DNA of 39,408 nucleotides from a virus. The stretch's first letter is position 1; each line of letters opens with the position of its first letter. The notes beneath the pieces are model-generated. The model saw only the letters and a list, made by a program, of their open reading frames with translations, ran no database searches and was not told the origin of the DNA. Shown piece after piece: positions 567 to 7,629 of this stretch. Made by a program: the position numbers and the translations under genes. The stretch covers positions 1 to 39,408 of the IMG/VR virus record IMGVR_UViG_3300025093_000005. One strand, written 5' to 3'.

Positions 567-2010
567 AATACAAGTACGCATACCCGAAAAGATAAGCTGG
601 CTGCTATCAAAACCAAAGCGGATTAAGATAGCTGTAGGTGGTCGCGGCTCAGGTAAATCATTAGGTGTTGGCGATATCATGCTAATGCTATGTGACCACG
701 GCGAAAGGATATGCTGTACGCGTGAATTCCAAAACTCCATTGATGACTCAGTACATGAGACGCTAAAGCAAGAGATTGACCGCTTAGGCGTTGGCGGTAT
801 GACTGTCACAAACAACAATATCAATTCATCGTCAGGCGGCGAGATATTCTACAAAGGCTTGGCCCGCAATATTACTTCACTCAAATCATTGGCAGGCGTT
901 AACCGGTTGTGGATTGAAGAGGGTGAAAGCGTATCTGAATCAAGCTTAAAGGTATTGACTCCTTCAGTGCGTAGTGGCGCAAGTCAAGACGGCGACCCGC
1001 CGGAAATCTGGATAACCATGAACCGCAACAGCAGACAAGATGCTATCGCGAAGAAGTATCTTGCAAGGGCTGAAACCGCACTGGCTGAGAAAGGCTATTA
1101 CGAAGACGACCTAATCATGGTCGTTGAGGTTAATTACCAGGATAATCCTTGGTTCCCGCCAGAGCTTGAGCAAGAAAGGCTTGACGACCTTGAAAACCTA
1201 AGCCGTGAAGAATACGACCACATATGGGGCGGTGAGTATAACGAAACCGTCGAGAATGCGATTATCAAGAAAGCATGGTTTGATGCTGCGATTGATGCGC
1301 ATGAGAAGTTAGGATTCAAGGCTAACGGCGCAGTGGTAACGACATTCGACCCCGCTGACGAAGGTAACGATAGTAAAGGTATTGCTGTTCGCAAAGGCAT
1401 GGTTTATCACTACGTTGGTGAGATTGACGCGAAAGACGGTAACGAGGCGTGCGATATTGCCACTCAGAGAGCTATCAACGAAAACACAGACCTGTTTGTG
1501 TGGGATGGTGACGGAATGGGCGCTTTATTGCGTAGACAAGTTGGTGAGGCGTTTGAGGGCATCAAGTGTGACCTTCGCATGTATCGCGGCAGTAACGAGG
1601 TTGACGACAAAGACGCTGTTTACGAAGGCATTAACGCATTAGGCAACAAAGATAAGCCTAAGACTAATCGTGAGACGTTCTACAACAAACGCGCTCAGTA
1701 CTATATGAAGCTGGCTGATAGGTTTTACAAAACGTGGCTGGCAGTCGAGAAAGGCAAGTATATCAACCCGGACGAATTAATCAGCATTTGTAGTGACATA
1801 CCGTTAATTGATAAACTGCGCTCAGAATGTTGTCGCATACCGCGCAAACAAAATCCAACAGGAAAGATTCAGCTAATGTCGAAAGAGGAAATGAAGCGGC
1901 GTTATGACATTGAATCGCCTGGTATGGCAGACTGTTTAGCAATGGGTGAGGAAATGCCAGCAATGCGCGTTGATGACAAAGAACTTGAATTCGAATCTCT
2001 ATGGGATTAA
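559..2010 (+). CDS. terL: Terminase large subunit (ATPase-nuclease)
   Basis: Motor of DNA packaging: an N-terminal ATPase translocates DNA into the prohead and a C-terminal RNase H-fold nuclease cuts the concatemer. At 483 residues it is close to P22 gp2 (about 500). Walker A is GGRGSGKS at 27-34 and Walker B is RLWIEEGE at 116-123. The nuclease acids are seen as D264 (TTFDPAD), D316 (VWDGDG) and D458 (GMADCLAM), the usual three-Asp pattern. It overlaps terS by 8 bp and is followed by the portal gene. Together with the P22-type portal and coat it supports headful packaging. Confidence 0.95.
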   Translation: MSEIQVRIPEKISWLLSKPKRIKIAVGGRGSGKSLGVGDIMLMLCDHGERICCTREFQNSIDDSVHETLKQEIDRLGVGGMTVTNNNINSSSGGEIFYKGLARNITSLKSLAGVNRLWIEEGESVSESSLKVLTPSVRSGASQDGDPPEIWITMNRNSRQDAIAKKYLARAETALAEKGYYEDDLIMVVEVNYQDNPWFPPELEQERLDDLENLSREEYDHIWGGEYNETVENAIIKKAWFDAAIDAHEKLGFKANGAVVTTFDPADEGNDSKGIAVRKGMVYHYVGEIDAKDGNEACDIATQRAINENTDLFVWDGDGMGALLRRQVGEAFEGIKCDLRMYRGSNEVDDKDAVYEGINALGNKDKPKTNRETFYNKRAQYYMKLADRFYKTWLAVEKGKYINPDELISICSDIPLIDKLRSECCRIPRKQNPTGKIQLMSKEEMKRRYDIESPGMADCLAMGEEMPAMRVDDKELEFESLWD

Positions 2011-2014
2011 TCAC

Positions 2015-4180
2015 ATGAAATATGAAAATTTAAAAACCGATTTGAAGAAGTCCCAGGATGCAGATGAGGATTTGCGCGACCATTCAAGGGAGGCAACACA
2101 CTTTGTCAATAAGCGCGACGGGCAATGGGAGCCTGAGATTGTAGCACGCACAAAAGGGCGACCACGCTACACAGACGACAGAGTAAACCCAATCGTTGAC
2201 CAGATATGCGGTGAGATTAACCAGCGTGACTTTGCGCTAACGGTTAAACCCGCTGGCGGTAACGCGTCAAAAGACACGGCCAAGGTACTTGATGGCCTGA
2301 TGCGCAATATTCAAAACATTAGCCGGTTCCAATCGTCGCAGAAAGGCATTGCACGCTCTATCGTCGAGGGCGGCATCGGTGCATTTGAGATTGTGACAGA
2401 CTACGTTGACGGTGACGCATTCGACCAGGATATATTCTGGAAGCCGATTCATGATGCCGTTGACCGCGTATGGATTGACCCTGTTAGTTATGAGCGTGAC
2501 CACAGTGACGCGGACTGGGGTGTTATTTACGAATACATAAGCTTAGAAGAATTCGAGAAGATTGCAGGCGATGACAGAAGCCCGTCAGCAGTTGACAGCA
2601 ACCGGTTAAGCAACGTGTACACGCAAAAGCCCGACTTCATCACAGTTGGGCGCTGCTACTATCGAAAGACATCACCAATCGACATTGTGAGAATGTCTGA
2701 TGGCTCTGTGTATCAGGTTAACGAAGAGTTTGAGTCAATCGTTGACGACTTAGCAGCGGCAGGCATCACCGTTCAGGATACCCGCACACGCAACGCATCA
2801 CGGTTTTATCTGCGTTACTTCGATAATGACGGGTGGCTGAACGAGGAAGAAGAGACCGTTTTCGACTTCCTGCCAATCTGTGTTGGCTATGGTAACTACA
2901 AGGTCAGTGAAGGTAAACGTTTGTGGCGTGGTGTTGTCGAGAAGCTGATGGACATTCAGCGCGTTCACAACTATGCATTCAGCCAGCAGGTTATCGAGAC
3001 GGCACTAGCGCCGCGTCCTAAGTACTGGATGACCAAAGAGCAGGCAGCAGGGAACCTTAAGTCGCTGCAATCAATGAACACCAACCTTGACCCAGTGCAG
3101 ACATACACGCACGTAGCCGGTCAGAACCCGCCGACATACATGGGCGGCTCAATTGTTAACCCTGGACTTCAAACATTAGTAGACCAGACCAACAGCGGCA
3201 TTAATCAGGCGGCTGGATTGTTTGGCGCTAACATGGGTAATAACCCCAATCTGCAATCAGGCGTTGCGCTTGAGAAACAGGTTGACCAAGGCAACAACGG
3301 GATTGATAAATGGTTTGAGGCCATTGAAGCCATGCTGCTGTACGCAGGACGCGTAACAGTTAACGCTATTCCTCGAGTCTACGACAGCACGCGCCAGATT
3401 CGCATATTAGGCGAGGATGGCTCAAGTCAGATGGTTGACATTAACCGTCAGGTTATTGACTCGCAGACCGGCCAGATTGTTACGATTAACGACCTATCAG
3501 TGGGCGAATACGACGTAGTGTGCGAAATCGGCCAGAATTACCGCAGCAAACGCGAGCAGGCAGCGGAAGAGTTTGCACGTATCGCACAGGTTGACCCTGC
3601 TGTTATGGAGTTTGGCCGAGACGTATGGTTTAGGAATCTTGATGCACCTGGATTCGATGATTTGGCAGACCGCGCACGACAGGCAATGCTTAACCAAGGC
3701 TTAATCCCACAAGACCAAATGAGTGAGGAAGAGTTAGCGCAGGCGCAGGCAGCGGCGCAGGCCAATCAAAACAAACCTGACCCAGCCATGCTGTTGGCGC
3801 AGGCTGAAATGACCAAGGCTCAGGCTGATATGCTAGGCGAGCAGAACAAACAAGCAGAGCTACAGTTAAGAGCGGCAGACATTCAGGCTAAATACCAATC
3901 GCAGAATGACAAGCTTCAATCTGAAACAGCGCTTAACTTTGCTAAAGTCGAGCAGGGCCAGCAACAGATTGACCTGCAAGCGCAGCAGCAAGCAGCACAG
4001 CAGCAACTTGAGATGATGCGTATGATGTTAGAGCAGCAGAAAGCGCAGGCTCAGGAAGTGGCACAATTGGCAAGTGCGCTGAAGTCGATAAAGGAGGCGA
4101 TGGGCGCAGATGTTGTAGTAAATGAAAGTGCGGCTAAGGCTTACGACGAAACCGCACAGGATATAACAGGGGCTAGTTAG
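2015..4180 (+). CDS. Portal protein, P22 type
   Basis: Dodecameric ring at the unique capsid vertex, the docking site for terminase and later for the tail. The 721-residue length matches P22 gp1 (725). Recognisable P22-portal segments are the opening RDHSREATHFV, GRPRYTDDRVNPIVDQ and the QRVHNYAFSQ region. The last ~150 residues are rich in Q and A and coiled-coil-like, as expected for the long helical barrel of the P22 family. The ATG at 2015 is chosen over an upstream in-frame start at 1946 that lies inside terL; the ribosome site is weak, so coupling to terL is likely. The stop lies inside a hairpin shared with the convergent gene. Confidence 0.93.
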   Translation: MKYENLKTDLKKSQDADEDLRDHSREATHFVNKRDGQWEPEIVARTKGRPRYTDDRVNPIVDQICGEINQRDFALTVKPAGGNASKDTAKVLDGLMRNIQNISRFQSSQKGIARSIVEGGIGAFEIVTDYVDGDAFDQDIFWKPIHDAVDRVWIDPVSYERDHSDADWGVIYEYISLEEFEKIAGDDRSPSAVDSNRLSNVYTQKPDFITVGRCYYRKTSPIDIVRMSDGSVYQVNEEFESIVDDLAAAGITVQDTRTRNASRFYLRYFDNDGWLNEEEETVFDFLPICVGYGNYKVSEGKRLWRGVVEKLMDIQRVHNYAFSQQVIETALAPRPKYWMTKEQAAGNLKSLQSMNTNLDPVQTYTHVAGQNPPTYMGGSIVNPGLQTLVDQTNSGINQAAGLFGANMGNNPNLQSGVALEKQVDQGNNGIDKWFEAIEAMLLYAGRVTVNAIPRVYDSTRQIRILGEDGSSQMVDINRQVIDSQTGQIVTINDLSVGEYDVVCEIGQNYRSKREQAAEEFARIAQVDPAVMEFGRDVWFRNLDAPGFDDLADRARQAMLNQGLIPQDQMSEEELAQAQAAAQANQNKPDPAMLLAQAEMTKAQADMLGEQNKQAELQLRAADIQAKYQSQNDKLQSETALNFAKVEQGQQQIDLQAQQQAAQQQLEMMRMMLEQQKAQAQEVAQLASALKSIKEAMGADVVVNESAAKAYDETAQDITGAS

Positions 4181-4193
4181 GCCCCTTTATTTT
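4169..4193. terminator. Hairpin terminator between convergent genes
   Basis: GGGGC (4169-4173) and GCCCC (4181-4185) flank a 7-nt loop, followed on the plus strand by TTTATTTT. It contains the portal stop codon and the stop of the minus-strand gene at 4177. On the minus strand the stem lacks a clean T tract, so it should act mainly on plus-strand transcription leaving the portal gene. Confidence 0.65.
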
Positions 4194-4410
4194 GCAACAA
4201 GCCAACATCACTCAATTCGTTGATAACAGCCCTCACCGCATCTTCGCCGACTTTATCGATTAACTCTGTCAAAGCATCTTCATTGCCGTTTTCGATAGCG
4301 CTAAGAACCATTCGCGATAGCTCGATAGTGCTATCAATCATATTCTCTTTAATCGCCGCAATGTCTAACTGGCTGCATTCTACAGCGGTTGATAGTTTGG
4401 ATTTTTTCAT
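4177..4410 (-). CDS. Hypothetical protein, last gene of inverted cassette
   Basis: A 77-residue acidic, mostly helical protein (SAIENGNEDALTELIDKV) of no family I recognise. Its ATG overlaps the upstream stop (ATGA) and has AAGGG seven bases before it, so it is translated and coupled to the gene at 4407-4613. Its stop lies in the terminator hairpin shared with the portal gene. It is the last of five minus-strand genes inserted between portal and scaffold, so a structural role is unlikely. Confidence 0.7.
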   Translation of the reverse strand: MKKSKLSTAVECSQLDIAAIKENMIDSTIELSRMVLSAIENGNEDALTELIDKVGEDAVRAVINELSDVGLLQNKGA

Positions 4411-4613
4411 TTCATAACCCTTATAAATTCAACCAACTCAACACTGTCAATAGAAATTAAATTGCTACCATATGTTGATTTCAGCGACTCAATTACATCG
4501 GTAACTCTTTCGCCTTCCTTATACACCGCCTTTTCTGATAAAGACTTATAATCGCTTTCGTGGCCTTTCACTGTTACGGTAGTTTTATAAACTGGATTTT
4601 TAAATGCAAACAT
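4407..4613 (-). CDS. Hypothetical protein
   Basis: A 68-residue protein of unknown function, starting MFAFKNPVYK and ending in a hydrophobic VELVEFIRVMK segment. The ATG at 4613 is preferred to an upstream in-frame start because AAGGAG lies six bases before it. There is a short gap (4614-4665) to the upstream gene, the only one in the cassette. Alternating polar and hydrophobic residues suggest a small alpha/beta domain. No motif gives a role. Confidence 0.7.
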   Translation of the reverse strand: MFAFKNPVYKTTVTVKGHESDYKSLSEKAVYKEGERVTDVIESLKSTYGSNLISIDSVELVEFIRVMK

Positions 4614-4665
4614 ATTTCGCTCCTTATTTTTAAATTCACACAATAACTTTAGCGTTTGGATTTTT

Positions 4666-4914
4666 TCAATCTAAAACCTCGATAATTACAGTTCTTTTAA
4701 CCTTAACAACATCACCTTTGCAAACCTCTTTTACGTAGTGGCTACCAGGCCATGTAAAGTCTAGCGGAAGCATTACGTACCTTTGGTCGCGTAATTCTGC
4801 GTTATGTATGTCGCCGAAACCAAATTCTTTACTACGCCCATCATCGTAGGTTTCTTGCCAAGCTTTCCCATCTTTAACAAGCATTACGCCAGTTTCTTCT
4901 TTTATGTATTTCAC
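4666..4914 (-). CDS. Hypothetical protein
   Basis: An 82-residue protein with a GTG start at 4914, supported by GAGGGG upstream and a GTGA overlap with the previous gene's stop. The C-terminal third (KGDVVKVKRTVIIEVL) looks like a small beta-barrel, and a central segment is rich in D, G and aromatics. I do not recognise the family. It is the middle gene of the inverted cassette and is expected to share the promoter at 5448-5476. Confidence 0.7.
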   Translation of the reverse strand: MKYIKEETGVMLVKDGKAWQETYDDGRSKEFGFGDIHNAELRDQRYVMLPLDFTWPGSHYVKEVCKGDVVKVKRTVIIEVLD

Positions 4915-5072
4915 TTCATCCCCTCAATCATCTTGGTTAATTTATCGTGTAGCTTTTCATTTGCGCAGTAGTTGTCGTATGTGCGACGCGTAATGCCCCA
5001 ATAGTCTAAAAAATCCTGCACCTTGTAGCCCTTCGCGTGAATCTTTCTCGTGTGTTGGTTTGGTTTGCTCAT
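4911..5072 (-). CDS. Small HTH-like protein
   Basis: A 53-residue basic protein with the layout KVQDFLDYWGITRRTYDNY, resembling the two helices of a DNA-binding helix-turn-helix. The ATG at 5072 overlaps the upstream stop (ATGA), and its TGA overlaps the GTG of the next gene. It could be the cassette's own regulator or a short repressor of neighbouring late genes. The HTH is inferred by eye only. Confidence 0.6.
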   Translation of the reverse strand: MSKPNQHTRKIHAKGYKVQDFLDYWGITRRTYDNYCANEKLHDKLTKMIEGMK

Positions 5073-5413
5073 CTAAAGGACGCTCCAGGCATGCCAGCCA
5101 AACTTCCTAAGCCAGCTAGAACGCCAGGACAGCCTTGCGGCCTGCCAGTTAAAGCGGCATTCTGAAATGCTGATAATTGATTATTATGCATTGCAAGGCC
5201 AGTACTCTGACTAACATTAACCTTTGCTTTTTTAGCCTCTAGCAACTCAAGTATCGCATCATCATCATTGCAATACATTTCCATTATCCGAAGTTTTAAC
5301 TTTAACTCCGCATTCTCTTTCTCCAGCCGCTCCATTGCGTCTATCTGCTCCCTGTATTTATCGATCAATTCAGACTGCCTTTTTATTTCCGCTTTCAATT
5401 TACCGTTAAACAT
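5069..5413 (-). CDS. Coiled-coil protein, first gene of inverted cassette
   Basis: A 114-residue protein whose first ~65 residues form a clear coiled coil (IKRQSELIDKYREQIDAMER, with heptad-spaced I/L/M). The rest is Gly/Pro/Ala-rich and probably flexible, ending GMPGASFR. AAGGA precedes the ATG at 5413. It is the promoter-proximal gene, about 35 bases below the -10 of the minus promoter at 5448-5476. Function unknown; it might oligomerise or bind a host protein. Confidence 0.7.
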   Translation of the reverse strand: MFNGKLKAEIKRQSELIDKYREQIDAMERLEKENAELKLKLRIMEMYCNDDDAILELLEAKKAKVNVSQSTGLAMHNNQLSAFQNAALTGRPQGCPGVLAGLGSLAGMPGASFR

Positions 5414-5447
5414 TGTAAATCCTTCATATGAAAATATTACATAAACA

Positions 5448-5476
5448 GTATTACACCCAATTCAATATAATGTCAA
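5448..5476 (-). promoter_or_regulatory. Sigma70-like promoter of the inverted cassette
   Basis: On the minus strand, a consensus TTGACA (-35, 5476-5471) is followed after 17 bp by TAATAC (5453-5448). It points at the five-gene cassette. A plus-strand TATAAT (5466-5471) overlaps the -35 box and could help transcribe scaffold and coat, but I find no matching plus-strand -35. Confidence 0.6.
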
Positions 5477-5527
5477 CAACAGTACGCGACTGTATCGCGG
5501 GTTTGCATACCGTAATGGGGTTACAAC

Positions 5528-6349
5528 ATGAGTGAGCTAGAAAACGAAATCGAAAACGAAGTTATGGACGACCAAGTTGAAGAGGTCGAAGAGGTTGAAT
5601 CTGAACAAGATGAGCCGTCCGATTTAGCACCGGATAGTGAAACGGAACACGAAGAAAATGCCGAGGAAGATGAACACCGCGTCAATCAGGAAAAGATTCA
5701 GCAGGTTATCAATAAAAAACATCGTGAGATGATGGAAGCGAAAGAAGAGGCTGAGCGCTTACGCAAACAGTTGGAGCAATTCAACTCACAGCAGAAGCAA
5801 GGTGAGGCCCCTGAAATCCTTCCGGCACCTGACCCGTTTGATGATGACTATGATTCGAAGATTAAAGCGCGAGATGAATCTATCCAGCGCCGCGCTCAGT
5901 GGGAAGCTGAAAACGCACAGCGACAGCAAGCACAGCAGCGGCAGCAAGAAGAACTGCAACGCGCTCAGGTCGAGCAAGTGCGTTCACAGATGGAGTCATA
6001 TACCGCAAAGGCCAAGTCTTACGGTATTACCAATGAAGAGTTGCAATCAGCGGCCAATATCGTTGGTCAGTCTGGTTTAAGCGATGATATTGCGTTGGCT
6101 ATTCTCGCAGATGAGGAAGGCCCGTTAATTACAAAGTATCTCGCAGCAAACCAGCTTGAAGCATACGAGATTGCGCAGATGGCACCGATTCAGGCGGCTC
6201 AATATCTGGAGCGCAAAGTGAGACCTAAGTTAGCTGCATTGAAACCAAAACAATCCAGCGCACCTAAGCCACCAACGCGTACAAAACAGGTTGTTGGTGA
6301 CGCAGAGCTTGGCAAGTACAAGCACCTGGGCGGCGCTAAATTTGAATAA
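5528..6349 (+). CDS. Scaffolding protein
   Basis: Internal chaperone that guides coat assembly into a prohead and then leaves. The 273-residue protein is very acidic in its first 55 residues (EVEEVESEQDEP), coiled-coil and Q/E-rich through about 56-160, and ends basic (KVRPKLAALKPKQ), the usual scaffold pattern with a basic coat-binding C-terminus. Its place directly before the coat gene matches P22 gp8. Homology is by position and composition, since scaffolds diverge quickly. The gene is cut off from portal by the inverted cassette, so it may need read-through or its own promoter. Confidence 0.85.
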   Translation: MSELENEIENEVMDDQVEEVEEVESEQDEPSDLAPDSETEHEENAEEDEHRVNQEKIQQVINKKHREMMEAKEEAERLRKQLEQFNSQQKQGEAPEILPAPDPFDDDYDSKIKARDESIQRRAQWEAENAQRQQAQQRQQEELQRAQVEQVRSQMESYTAKAKSYGITNEELQSAANIVGQSGLSDDIALAILADEEGPLITKYLAANQLEAYEIAQMAPIQAAQYLERKVRPKLAALKPKQSSAPKPPTRTKQVVGDAELGKYKHLGGAKFE

Positions 6350-6360
6350 GGTAACTACTC

Positions 6361-7629
6361 ATGTCCAATTCTTTTGATAGTAACTTTACGCGCAAACTCG
6401 CAAAGGTATTTCTGAACGAGTTTGAAACAACTCGCGTAATCTCTAAGAACGTTAACACTCAGTTGTTAAGCGGCAAATTCGGCCCTGACACAGGTGAAAA
6501 CGTAGATTTTAAACGTCCTAATGACTACACAACCAAGCGTACTGCAACCGGTGACATTTCATCCGGTAGCCGTTCAGGCATCATCACCGGCAAAGCAACC
6601 GGTACTGTTCAGGACTATTTCACTGTTGACGTTGACTACGACGAAGCCGACGAAGCATTGAAAATGGACCAACTTGAACAGTTGCTGCGCCCGGCTGCGA
6701 AACGTATCGTAACTGACTTGGAGCTGGACTTCGCATCGTTCGCTATGAAGAATGCGGGTTTGATGTCTGGTTCTTACGGTACTGCAATTTCAACATGGGA
6801 CCACGTGGCGGAAGCTGGCTCAATGATGCAAGCGTCTGGTATCCCGATGGATGATGACTGGTGCTTCTTCGCTAACCCGTTCACGCAACGTAAGTTAGCA
6901 AGCAACCAACGCTCACTAGGCGGTGAGACTGGCAGCATGACTGCTAACCAACGCGCAGTGATTACTGAAATGTTTGCTGGCATGAAGGTGATGACCGCAA
7001 CGTCTCTGCCTACCTACACCACCGGCTCAGGTGCTGACCGTGCGGGCACGCTGTCTGCTAACCCGACTGTGACTTACCTTGCAGCCAAAGACACCATGAC
7101 TCAGGTACTACCTGTAACTGCTTTCCAGGCTAACCTTGAAGTTAAGGCTGGTGAGAAAATCCAGATTACAGGTCGCAATCGTCTGAACCTGTCCACCCGC
7201 CAACCTATTGTTGACGAGACTGGTGCAGTGGTTGTTTATACCGGTACTGTGGTTTCTGACGTAACGCTTGACGGCTCGGGCGCTGGTAACATCGTGGTAA
7301 CTGGTCCGGCTATCTACGAAACCAACGGCGCATACAACACTGTTGATTCTGCTCCGGTATCTGGCGACGTGGTAACGCTGTTAGGTTCAGCCTCAACGCT
7401 GTATCAGCCTAACCTGTTCTGGCACAAACAAGCATTCTCGATTGGTTCTGTTCCAATCAAGAAACTGTACAGCACAGACACCGTTGCTACCACTGAAGAC
7501 GGCCTGCAAATCCGCGTATCGAAATACGCAGATGGTGACAAGAACAAGCAGATTGTACGTTTTGACTTACGTCCGGCGTATGCTGTTCTTAACCCGTTCT
7601 TTGCTGGTCACGGGTGGGGTCGCGTGTAA
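6361..7629 (+). CDS. Major capsid (coat) protein, P22 type
   Basis: Main shell protein, HK97 fold. At 422 residues it is close to P22 gp5 (430). Features typical of the P22 coat family include the N-terminal SNSFDSN...AKVFLNEFE helix, a GENVDFKRPNDYTT segment and a C-terminal VRFDLRPAYAVLNPFFAG. An inserted beta-rich region around residues 230-345 corresponds to the P22 insertion (I) domain. It starts 11 bases after scaffold and is followed by a strong terminator at 7643-7666, which would raise its transcript level over downstream genes. Confidence 0.93.
   Translation: MSNSFDSNFTRKLAKVFLNEFETTRVISKNVNTQLLSGKFGPDTGENVDFKRPNDYTTKRTATGDISSGSRSGIITGKATGTVQDYFTVDVDYDEADEALKMDQLEQLLRPAAKRIVTDLELDFASFAMKNAGLMSGSYGTAISTWDHVAEAGSMMQASGIPMDDDWCFFANPFTQRKLASNQRSLGGETGSMTANQRAVITEMFAGMKVMTATSLPTYTTGSGADRAGTLSANPTVTYLAAKDTMTQVLPVTAFQANLEVKAGEKIQITGRNRLNLSTRQPIVDETGAVVVYTGTVVSDVTLDGSGAGNIVVTGPAIYETNGAYNTVDSAPVSGDVVTLLGSASTLYQPNLFWHKQAFSIGSVPIKKLYSTDTVATTEDGLQIRVSKYADGDKNKQIVRFDLRPAYAVLNPFFAGHGWGRV

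Follow-up and report, generated by a model that had tools for sequence, protein, structure and literature searches.

A Swappable Minus-Strand Gene Cassette and a Conserved Scaffold-Leader Pseudoknot at the Portal–Scaffold Junction of a P22-Like Phage

Five Minus-Strand Genes Lie Between the Portal and Scaffold Genes

The sequence analyzed here is the IMG/VR virus record IMGVR_UViG_3300025093_000005, a single 39.4-kb record (39,408 nucleotides), whereby "the window" always refers to this whole stretch. Its terminase, portal, scaffold, and coat genes are all located on the plus strand, and five minus-strand genes, designated A–E, are inserted between the portal and the scaffold gene. By comparison with 80 viral loci encoding P22-like portals (L numbers) and with annotated phages, we found that these five genes are a swappable accessory cassette, located at a hotspot of gene insertion in a P22-like phage, and that a conserved pseudoknot, which was previously unnamed and has no Rfam family, lies beside it at the start of the scaffold message. 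The features of the cassette and its flanks are as follows:

4177–4410, minus strand: gene A, 77 amino acids, helical, family-less; homologues in L002 (57%) and L003 (96%)
4407–4613, minus strand: gene B, 68 amino acids from an ATG at 4613 behind AAGGAG; no relatives found
4666–4914, minus strand: gene C, 82 amino acids, GTG start; single relative in the Vibrio jumbo phage pVp-JHP1101 (39.7%, 4e-7)
4911–5072, minus strand: gene D, 53 amino acids, small helix-turn-helix (HTH) protein, cassette hallmark in several phage types
5069–5413, minus strand: gene E, 114 amino acids, predicted coiled coil; no family or relatives found
5447–5476, minus strand: candidate cassette promoter, −35 TTGACA at 5476–5471, −10 AATACT at 5452–5447, TG before the −10 box; kept in L003
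4168–4186, no strand assigned: GC-rich hairpin AGGGGCTAGTTAGGCCCCT, candidate terminator between the convergent units, spanning the stop codons of the portal gene and gene A
2009–4180, plus strand: P22-like portal gene, upstream flank (PF16510, 5.3e-145; start aligned with relatives)
5528–6349, plus strand: scaffold protein gene, downstream flank (phrog_8865, 5e-44)
6361–7629, plus strand: P22-like coat protein gene (PF11651, 2.8e-56)

The original prediction, which was made from the sequence of the window, described five overlapping minus-strand genes. The five open reading frames (ORFs) are present, whereby overlaps (4 bp each) occur at three of the four junctions, A/B, C/D, and D/E, and genes B and C are set 22–52 bp apart; for gene B, an alternative TTG start at 4643 would give a protein of 78 amino acids. 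Gene E looks like a coiled coil, as had been supposed. The GC content of the cassette is 0.403 compared to 0.502 for the portal and 0.484 for the scaffold gene, and 8% of equal-size windows are as low. Searches with the proteins A–E in Pfam, PHROG, NCBIfam, and PADLOC yielded no significant match but only weak matches at chance level, and a fold search with the gene A protein gave no significant match.

The Portal–Scaffold Junction Is a Hotspot of Gene Insertion and Turnover

In P22, Sf6, phiSG1, X14, and 340E47.2, the portal and scaffold genes are adjacent with nothing between them, in agreement with the earlier statement that they are otherwise neighbors. Among the relatives, the gap ranges from 63 bp to 4.5 kb. 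The 44 non-redundant complete junctions comprise 21 empty ones, 7 with only minus-strand genes, 10 with only plus-strand genes, and 6 with both; since these counts rest on automatic ORF calls, single small ORFs are uncertain. Gene content changes rapidly even between near-identical phages. L003, whose portal is 97% identical, retains only gene A and a 65%-identical gene D, so that three of the five genes are missing; in the same phage (L003 1–2546) the portal has an altered C terminus and is followed by a plus-strand gene for 237 amino acids, downstream of which the old portal-end hairpin is kept. The sister phage L002 has A and D in common with the window and different genes between them. At the same junction, the isolate Pseudoalteromonas phage vB_PspP-H6/1 (KX257490; H6/1 in the following) carries four other minus-strand genes, gp05–gp08, of which only gp05 has a relative that could be found, namely in L002. 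The original prediction had taken the cassette for a moron, i.e., an independently expressed insert. The comparison of the junctions, with many empty, other inserts elsewhere, and rapid turnover, came out as a moron predicts.

Inserts of other kinds were also observed. The portal–scaffold gaps of L047, L052, L055, L069, and L085 contain large plus-strand inserts of up to 1415 amino acids. A minus-strand gene for an acidic protein of 57 amino acids (MSDLYEVFETDDPEQMHD...; L072 4627–4800, minus strand) stands by itself directly in front of the scaffold leader, preceded by a large plus-strand insert, and is conserved in L078, L082, L087, L091, L096, L103, and L104.

Gene D Recurs in Cassettes of Three Unrelated Head Types

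The recurrence of gene D goes beyond the original prediction. Its relatives share 28–94% identity and occur in minus-strand cassettes at the portal–scaffold junction of P22-like heads (L002, L003, L009, L036, L042, L043, L056), in antiparallel cassettes at the TerL–portal junction of the SU10-like phages L020–L027, and antiparallel to the DUF4055 portal gene in Vibrio phage 1.131.O. D cassettes thus span three unrelated head types. An assignment of L009 to the T7-like phages was rejected after a family search, which returned a divergent P22-like head, and L009 is therefore not counted as an unrelated head type. In other Vibrio phages, D is found in accessory regions that have NinX, a Lar-like protein, or DNA methylases nearby, and in the phages 1.054.O, 1.112.O, and 13VT501A these are ordinary co-directional accessory regions. 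Further genes are shared between cassettes, e.g., that of a membrane protein of 37 amino acids in L036, L043, and L056, and that of one of 52 amino acids common to L034, L020, and L022; L034 has a different HTH gene, of the Cro/C1 type, in first position. Two single observations were made at such loci: in Vibrio phage 1.131.O, the 269-amino-acid neighbor of the D homologue (L013 4181–4990, plus strand) gave a weak match to DndB (E 0.004), which is below the cut-off, and in Salmonella phage SEN22 (L127 934–1434, minus strand) an antiparallel HNH endonuclease occupies the terminase–portal junction used by the SU10-like cassettes.

With respect to the HTH gene that had been predicted, where the motif had been assigned by eye, the AlphaFold2 (AF2) model of the gene D protein is all-helical with four helices (predicted local distance difference test score, pLDDT, 83). 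In Foldseek, it matched small HTH proteins such as EnrR and Aca1 (Aca1 E 6–8) only weakly. A significant match to a known Aca family was not found in Pfam, NCBIfam, PADLOC, or PDB. From its fold and its recurrence, we read gene D as the putative regulator of its own cassette.

It might instead be that D regulates elsewhere, e.g., early or late genes of the phage, and that the cassette is a regulatory module and not a set of effectors. Of the cassette genes, D is indeed retained most often, and its occurrence in the co-directional regions of the three Vibrio phages would fit such a role. We nevertheless regard this as unlikely, since most relatives, those with empty junctions included, have no D, which is therefore not needed for core regulation, and since its neighbors vary like accessory genes. 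A selfish mobile module, which a recombinase or homing would spread without benefit to the phage, is a less likely explanation still. It would account for the occurrence of one gene pool at two junctions and in phages with three head types, and a homing-endonuclease precedent exists in T4, where segG lies next to the pseudoknot of gene 32 (PMC535899). However, no match to a recombinase or nuclease family was found among the five cassette genes, and within the region 4150–5530 the cassette is not flanked by long direct repeats.

Candidate Promoters of the Cassette and of the Scaffold Gene Overlap Face to Face

On the opposite strand, the cassette promoter is overlapped by a second site:

5442–5471, plus strand: candidate scaffold promoter, −35 TAAACA at 5442–5447, −10 TATAAT at 5466–5471, face to face with the cassette promoter

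The cassette promoter (TTGACA-18-AATACT) matches the consensus at 10 of 12 positions. In L003, the −35 TTGACA and TGTAATACTG are kept whereas the spacer between them has diverged, which argues that the site is functional. Within 5442–5476, the −35 box of each promoter shares one base with the −10 box of the other; thus, two polymerases would be unable to occupy both sites at once, and it might be possible that the overlap constitutes a switch. The conserved promoter, the opposite strand, and the lower GC content make an independent expression of the cassette plausible. At the other end of the cassette, the hairpin AGGGGCTAGTTAGGCCCCT is conserved in four phages, L002, L003, and H6/1 among them.

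The Scaffold Leader Carries a Conserved Pseudoknot

Directly behind the promoter region, the following element was identified, which the original prediction had not described:

5479–5499, plus strand: H-type pseudoknot of the scaffold leader; stem S1, ACAG (5479–5482) with CTGT (5490–5493)
within it, plus strand: loop L1, TA; stem S2, CGCGA (5485–5489) with TCGCG (5495–5499)

In the motif of the window, ACAG-TA-CGCGA-CTGT-A-TCGCG, the two outer arms form one stem, and the second stem is formed by the loop CGCGA together with TCGCG downstream of it. The leaders were scanned with a fixed geometry at score thresholds of at least 17 and at least 21, whereby dinucleotide shuffles served as a control. 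The pseudoknot was found in 44 of 54 scaffold leaders at the lower and in 41 of 54 at the higher threshold, compared to 3/35 and 0/35 coat leaders from the same loci, 1/39 and 0/39 portal leaders, and 5.2% and 1.3% of the shuffles; one of 23 terminase (TerL) leaders reached the higher threshold. These counts are not independent, because the leaders are related. Because the fixed-geometry scan selects for pairing, leaders anchored only on TACGCGA were tested as well. Here, the first three S1 pairs are Watson–Crick in 94, 94, and 83%, a level that 0 of 5000 shuffles reached. In the anchored alignment A5, 99.1% of the cells pair and the covariation is 0.37 versus 0.117 (0/500 shuffles; slid controls at most 0.13). 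Variation on both sides of a pair is confined to S1 in this alignment, in which S2 shows one G-C to G-U change, and the covariation of S2 rests on the wider fixed-geometry leader set. Covariance models from Rfam, run over the scaffold leader, gave a best match of E 4.5, which is far under the gathering score.

The stems vary while the pairing is kept, as in AGC-ga-CTTGA-GCT-ata-TCAAG (L037), CTG-ta-CGCTA-CAG-at-TAGCG (L062), CAG-ta-TGCGA-CTG-aa-TCGCA (L113), GGC-ta-CCAGTG-GCC-ttt-CACTGG (Shewanella X14), and AGTC-ac-CGGCA-GACT-taa-TGCCG (Sf6). Besides Sf6 and X14, CUS-3, Thalassomonas BA3, and H6/1 have the pseudoknot in their scaffold leaders. Its 3' end mostly lies 18–34 nucleotides ahead of the scaffold ATG, a spacing that even Sf6 and phiSG1 retain, with the element located inside the 3' end of the portal gene. 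The P22 leader contains a weaker candidate, CGGC-a-GTGT-a-GCCG-ag-ACAC, which has no covariation support because the sequence is identical in SEN22 and Si3. In the scaffold leaders of two Proteus relatives the pseudoknot was not found; together with the weak P22 candidate, this means that the element is not universal. The SU10-like scaffold leaders, used as a negative control, did not yield it. Since the pseudoknot is present with or without inserts, and also in L009 and L029, which have divergent P22-like portals, it is independent of the cassette. Tandem or overlapping copies were seen at L005 7262–7362 and in the leaders of L093, L112, and L099.

A −10 box (5/6 or better) precedes the first stem by 4–14 nucleotides, mostly 6–10, in 24 of 36 marine leaders, compared to 21.5% of the shuffles, and a perfect TATAAT is present in 10 of 36 compared to 3% in shuffles. 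With a −10 box just upstream of it, the pseudoknot would mark the start of the scaffold mRNA. This position, directly 3' of a −10 box, is also where operators lie, and the core TACGCGAC is kept in many phages, so the interleaved inverted repeats might be a DNA site, i.e., a protein operator or promoter element, and not an RNA pseudoknot. We consider this about as improbable as the selfish module, since the stem sequences vary freely with the pairing maintained and since the spacing from the start codon is held even where the element lies within a portal gene.

Proposed Regulation of the Junction

With moderate confidence, we propose that the cassette is an exchangeable moron operon at the portal–scaffold hotspot, that D represses its own operon, that the junction is a transcription boundary, and that the pseudoknot controls scaffold translation. 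Host RNA polymerase would probably transcribe the cassette leftward from 5476–5447, in the same direction as the phage replication genes, and the transcript would end at the hairpin that the cassette and the portal stop have in common. D, which is often kept when its neighbors are swapped, most likely represses the cassette promoter, as Aca does in anti-CRISPR operons, and would thereby keep leftward transcription from disturbing the late head operon. Expression of the cassette would probably be early and limited by D, with A, B, C, and E directed against the host as interchangeable early effectors. The portal unit would be closed by the terminator, and scaffold and coat would be transcribed from their own promoter, whereby the conserved pseudoknot at the 5' end most likely controls scaffold translation. 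The junction would tolerate inserts in either orientation because it is a transcription boundary, with the portal terminator followed by the scaffold's own promoter.

Several points weigh against this proposal. A consensus scan counted 3 promoter-like sites in 3 kb versus 4.8 expected, and taken alone, the consensus promoter and terminator counts do not clearly exceed chance. The predicted promoter is there and kept in L003, but its consensus match alone is not above chance, and the predicted shared terminator is a conserved hairpin over both stop codons, but its T-tract lies on the plus side only, with none in the cassette direction. An inverted-repeat operator in the cassette promoter of the window is not above chance (53/100 shuffles; dyad 299/2000), and a comparison of gene D with characterized repressors gave no significant sequence or fold match. 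Because the operator repeat was sought in the window and not found, repression of the cassette by D is something that we only infer. Isolated operator repeats occur in L021 and L022 (1–2/100 shuffles); with none in the window, such repeats were rejected as general evidence. The minus-strand cassette of H6/1 has neither a D homologue nor a good minus-strand promoter. Finally, the anti-host role of A, B, C, and E is presumed, and the searches in PADLOC, Pfam, PHROG, and NCBIfam gave no significant match that would support the anti-defence or host-altering role originally suggested for the cassette.

The few or missing relatives of four of the five proteins might suggest that the cassette is left over from gene decay and consists of spurious small ORFs in filler sequence, but this is very improbable given the protein-level conservation of A and D in L002, L003, and others, the tight 4-bp overlaps, and the layout kept in H6/1.

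The pseudoknot at the cassette border is a more novel result than the cassette itself. P22 scaffold is autoregulated after transcription, as is known genetically, reportedly from work of King, Hall and Casjens in 1978, Casjens and Adams in 1985, and Wyckoff and Casjens in 1985. The natural hypothesis is therefore that free scaffold binds the pseudoknot. To our knowledge, how P22-like phages adjust scaffold synthesis has been an open question since the 1980s, and the pseudoknot may be how they set the amount of scaffold. It would offer a precise, mutable target for the adjustment of scaffold synthesis to capsid assembly. More tentatively, and with less confidence than in the proposal above, we suggest that from Sf6 and CUS-3 to the marine P22-like phages the leader pseudoknot is the operator by which free scaffold holds down its own translation, and that the promoter overlap shuts off the early cassette at head assembly. 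If this were true, the pseudoknot would be the missing RNA target of P22 scaffold autoregulation, and cassette and scaffold transcription would be mutually exclusive in the window. Gene D provides a guilt-by-association handle, since its cassettes in unrelated marine phages hold dozens of uncharacterized small proteins, which may act on the host. A simple rule is also suggested by the junction, namely that phages accept new genes at a boundary where a terminator is followed by a leader that is self-sufficient.

Comparison With Known Systems

The cassette resembles the morons of lambdoid and other tailed phages in that it is inserted between genes that are adjacent in relatives, lies on the opposite strand, has a lower GC content, and contains its own candidate promoter and terminator; it differs from them as a multi-gene operon with a recurrent HTH gene and gene-by-gene exchange. 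Like the acr-aca operons (Aca1 of JBD30, Aca2 of ZF40), it is a small operon that combines tiny, unrelated genes with a conserved small HTH gene. However, no homology to the Aca families or to any known Acr was found, and its promoter has no operator inverted repeat, whereas for Aca1 and Aca2 such a repeat over the promoter has been described (PMC8434428).

The scaffold-leader pseudoknot is comparable to the gene 32 operator of T4 and RB69, an H-type pseudoknot of about 25 nucleotides at or near the mRNA 5' end and upstream of the Shine–Dalgarno sequence, which tolerates sequence divergence and beside which an accessory gene is inserted in T4 (PMC535899). Here, too, a conserved H-type pseudoknot lies upstream of the Shine–Dalgarno sequence with accessory genes adjoining. 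Unlike the gene 32 element, it precedes a scaffold gene and not the gene of a single-stranded DNA-binding protein, and the leader of the window has no UUAAA repeats. In H6/1, gp05–gp08 differ from the cassette of the window in their genes and in the absence of a D homologue, and are like it in forming a minus-strand cassette at the same junction in front of the same pseudoknot leader.

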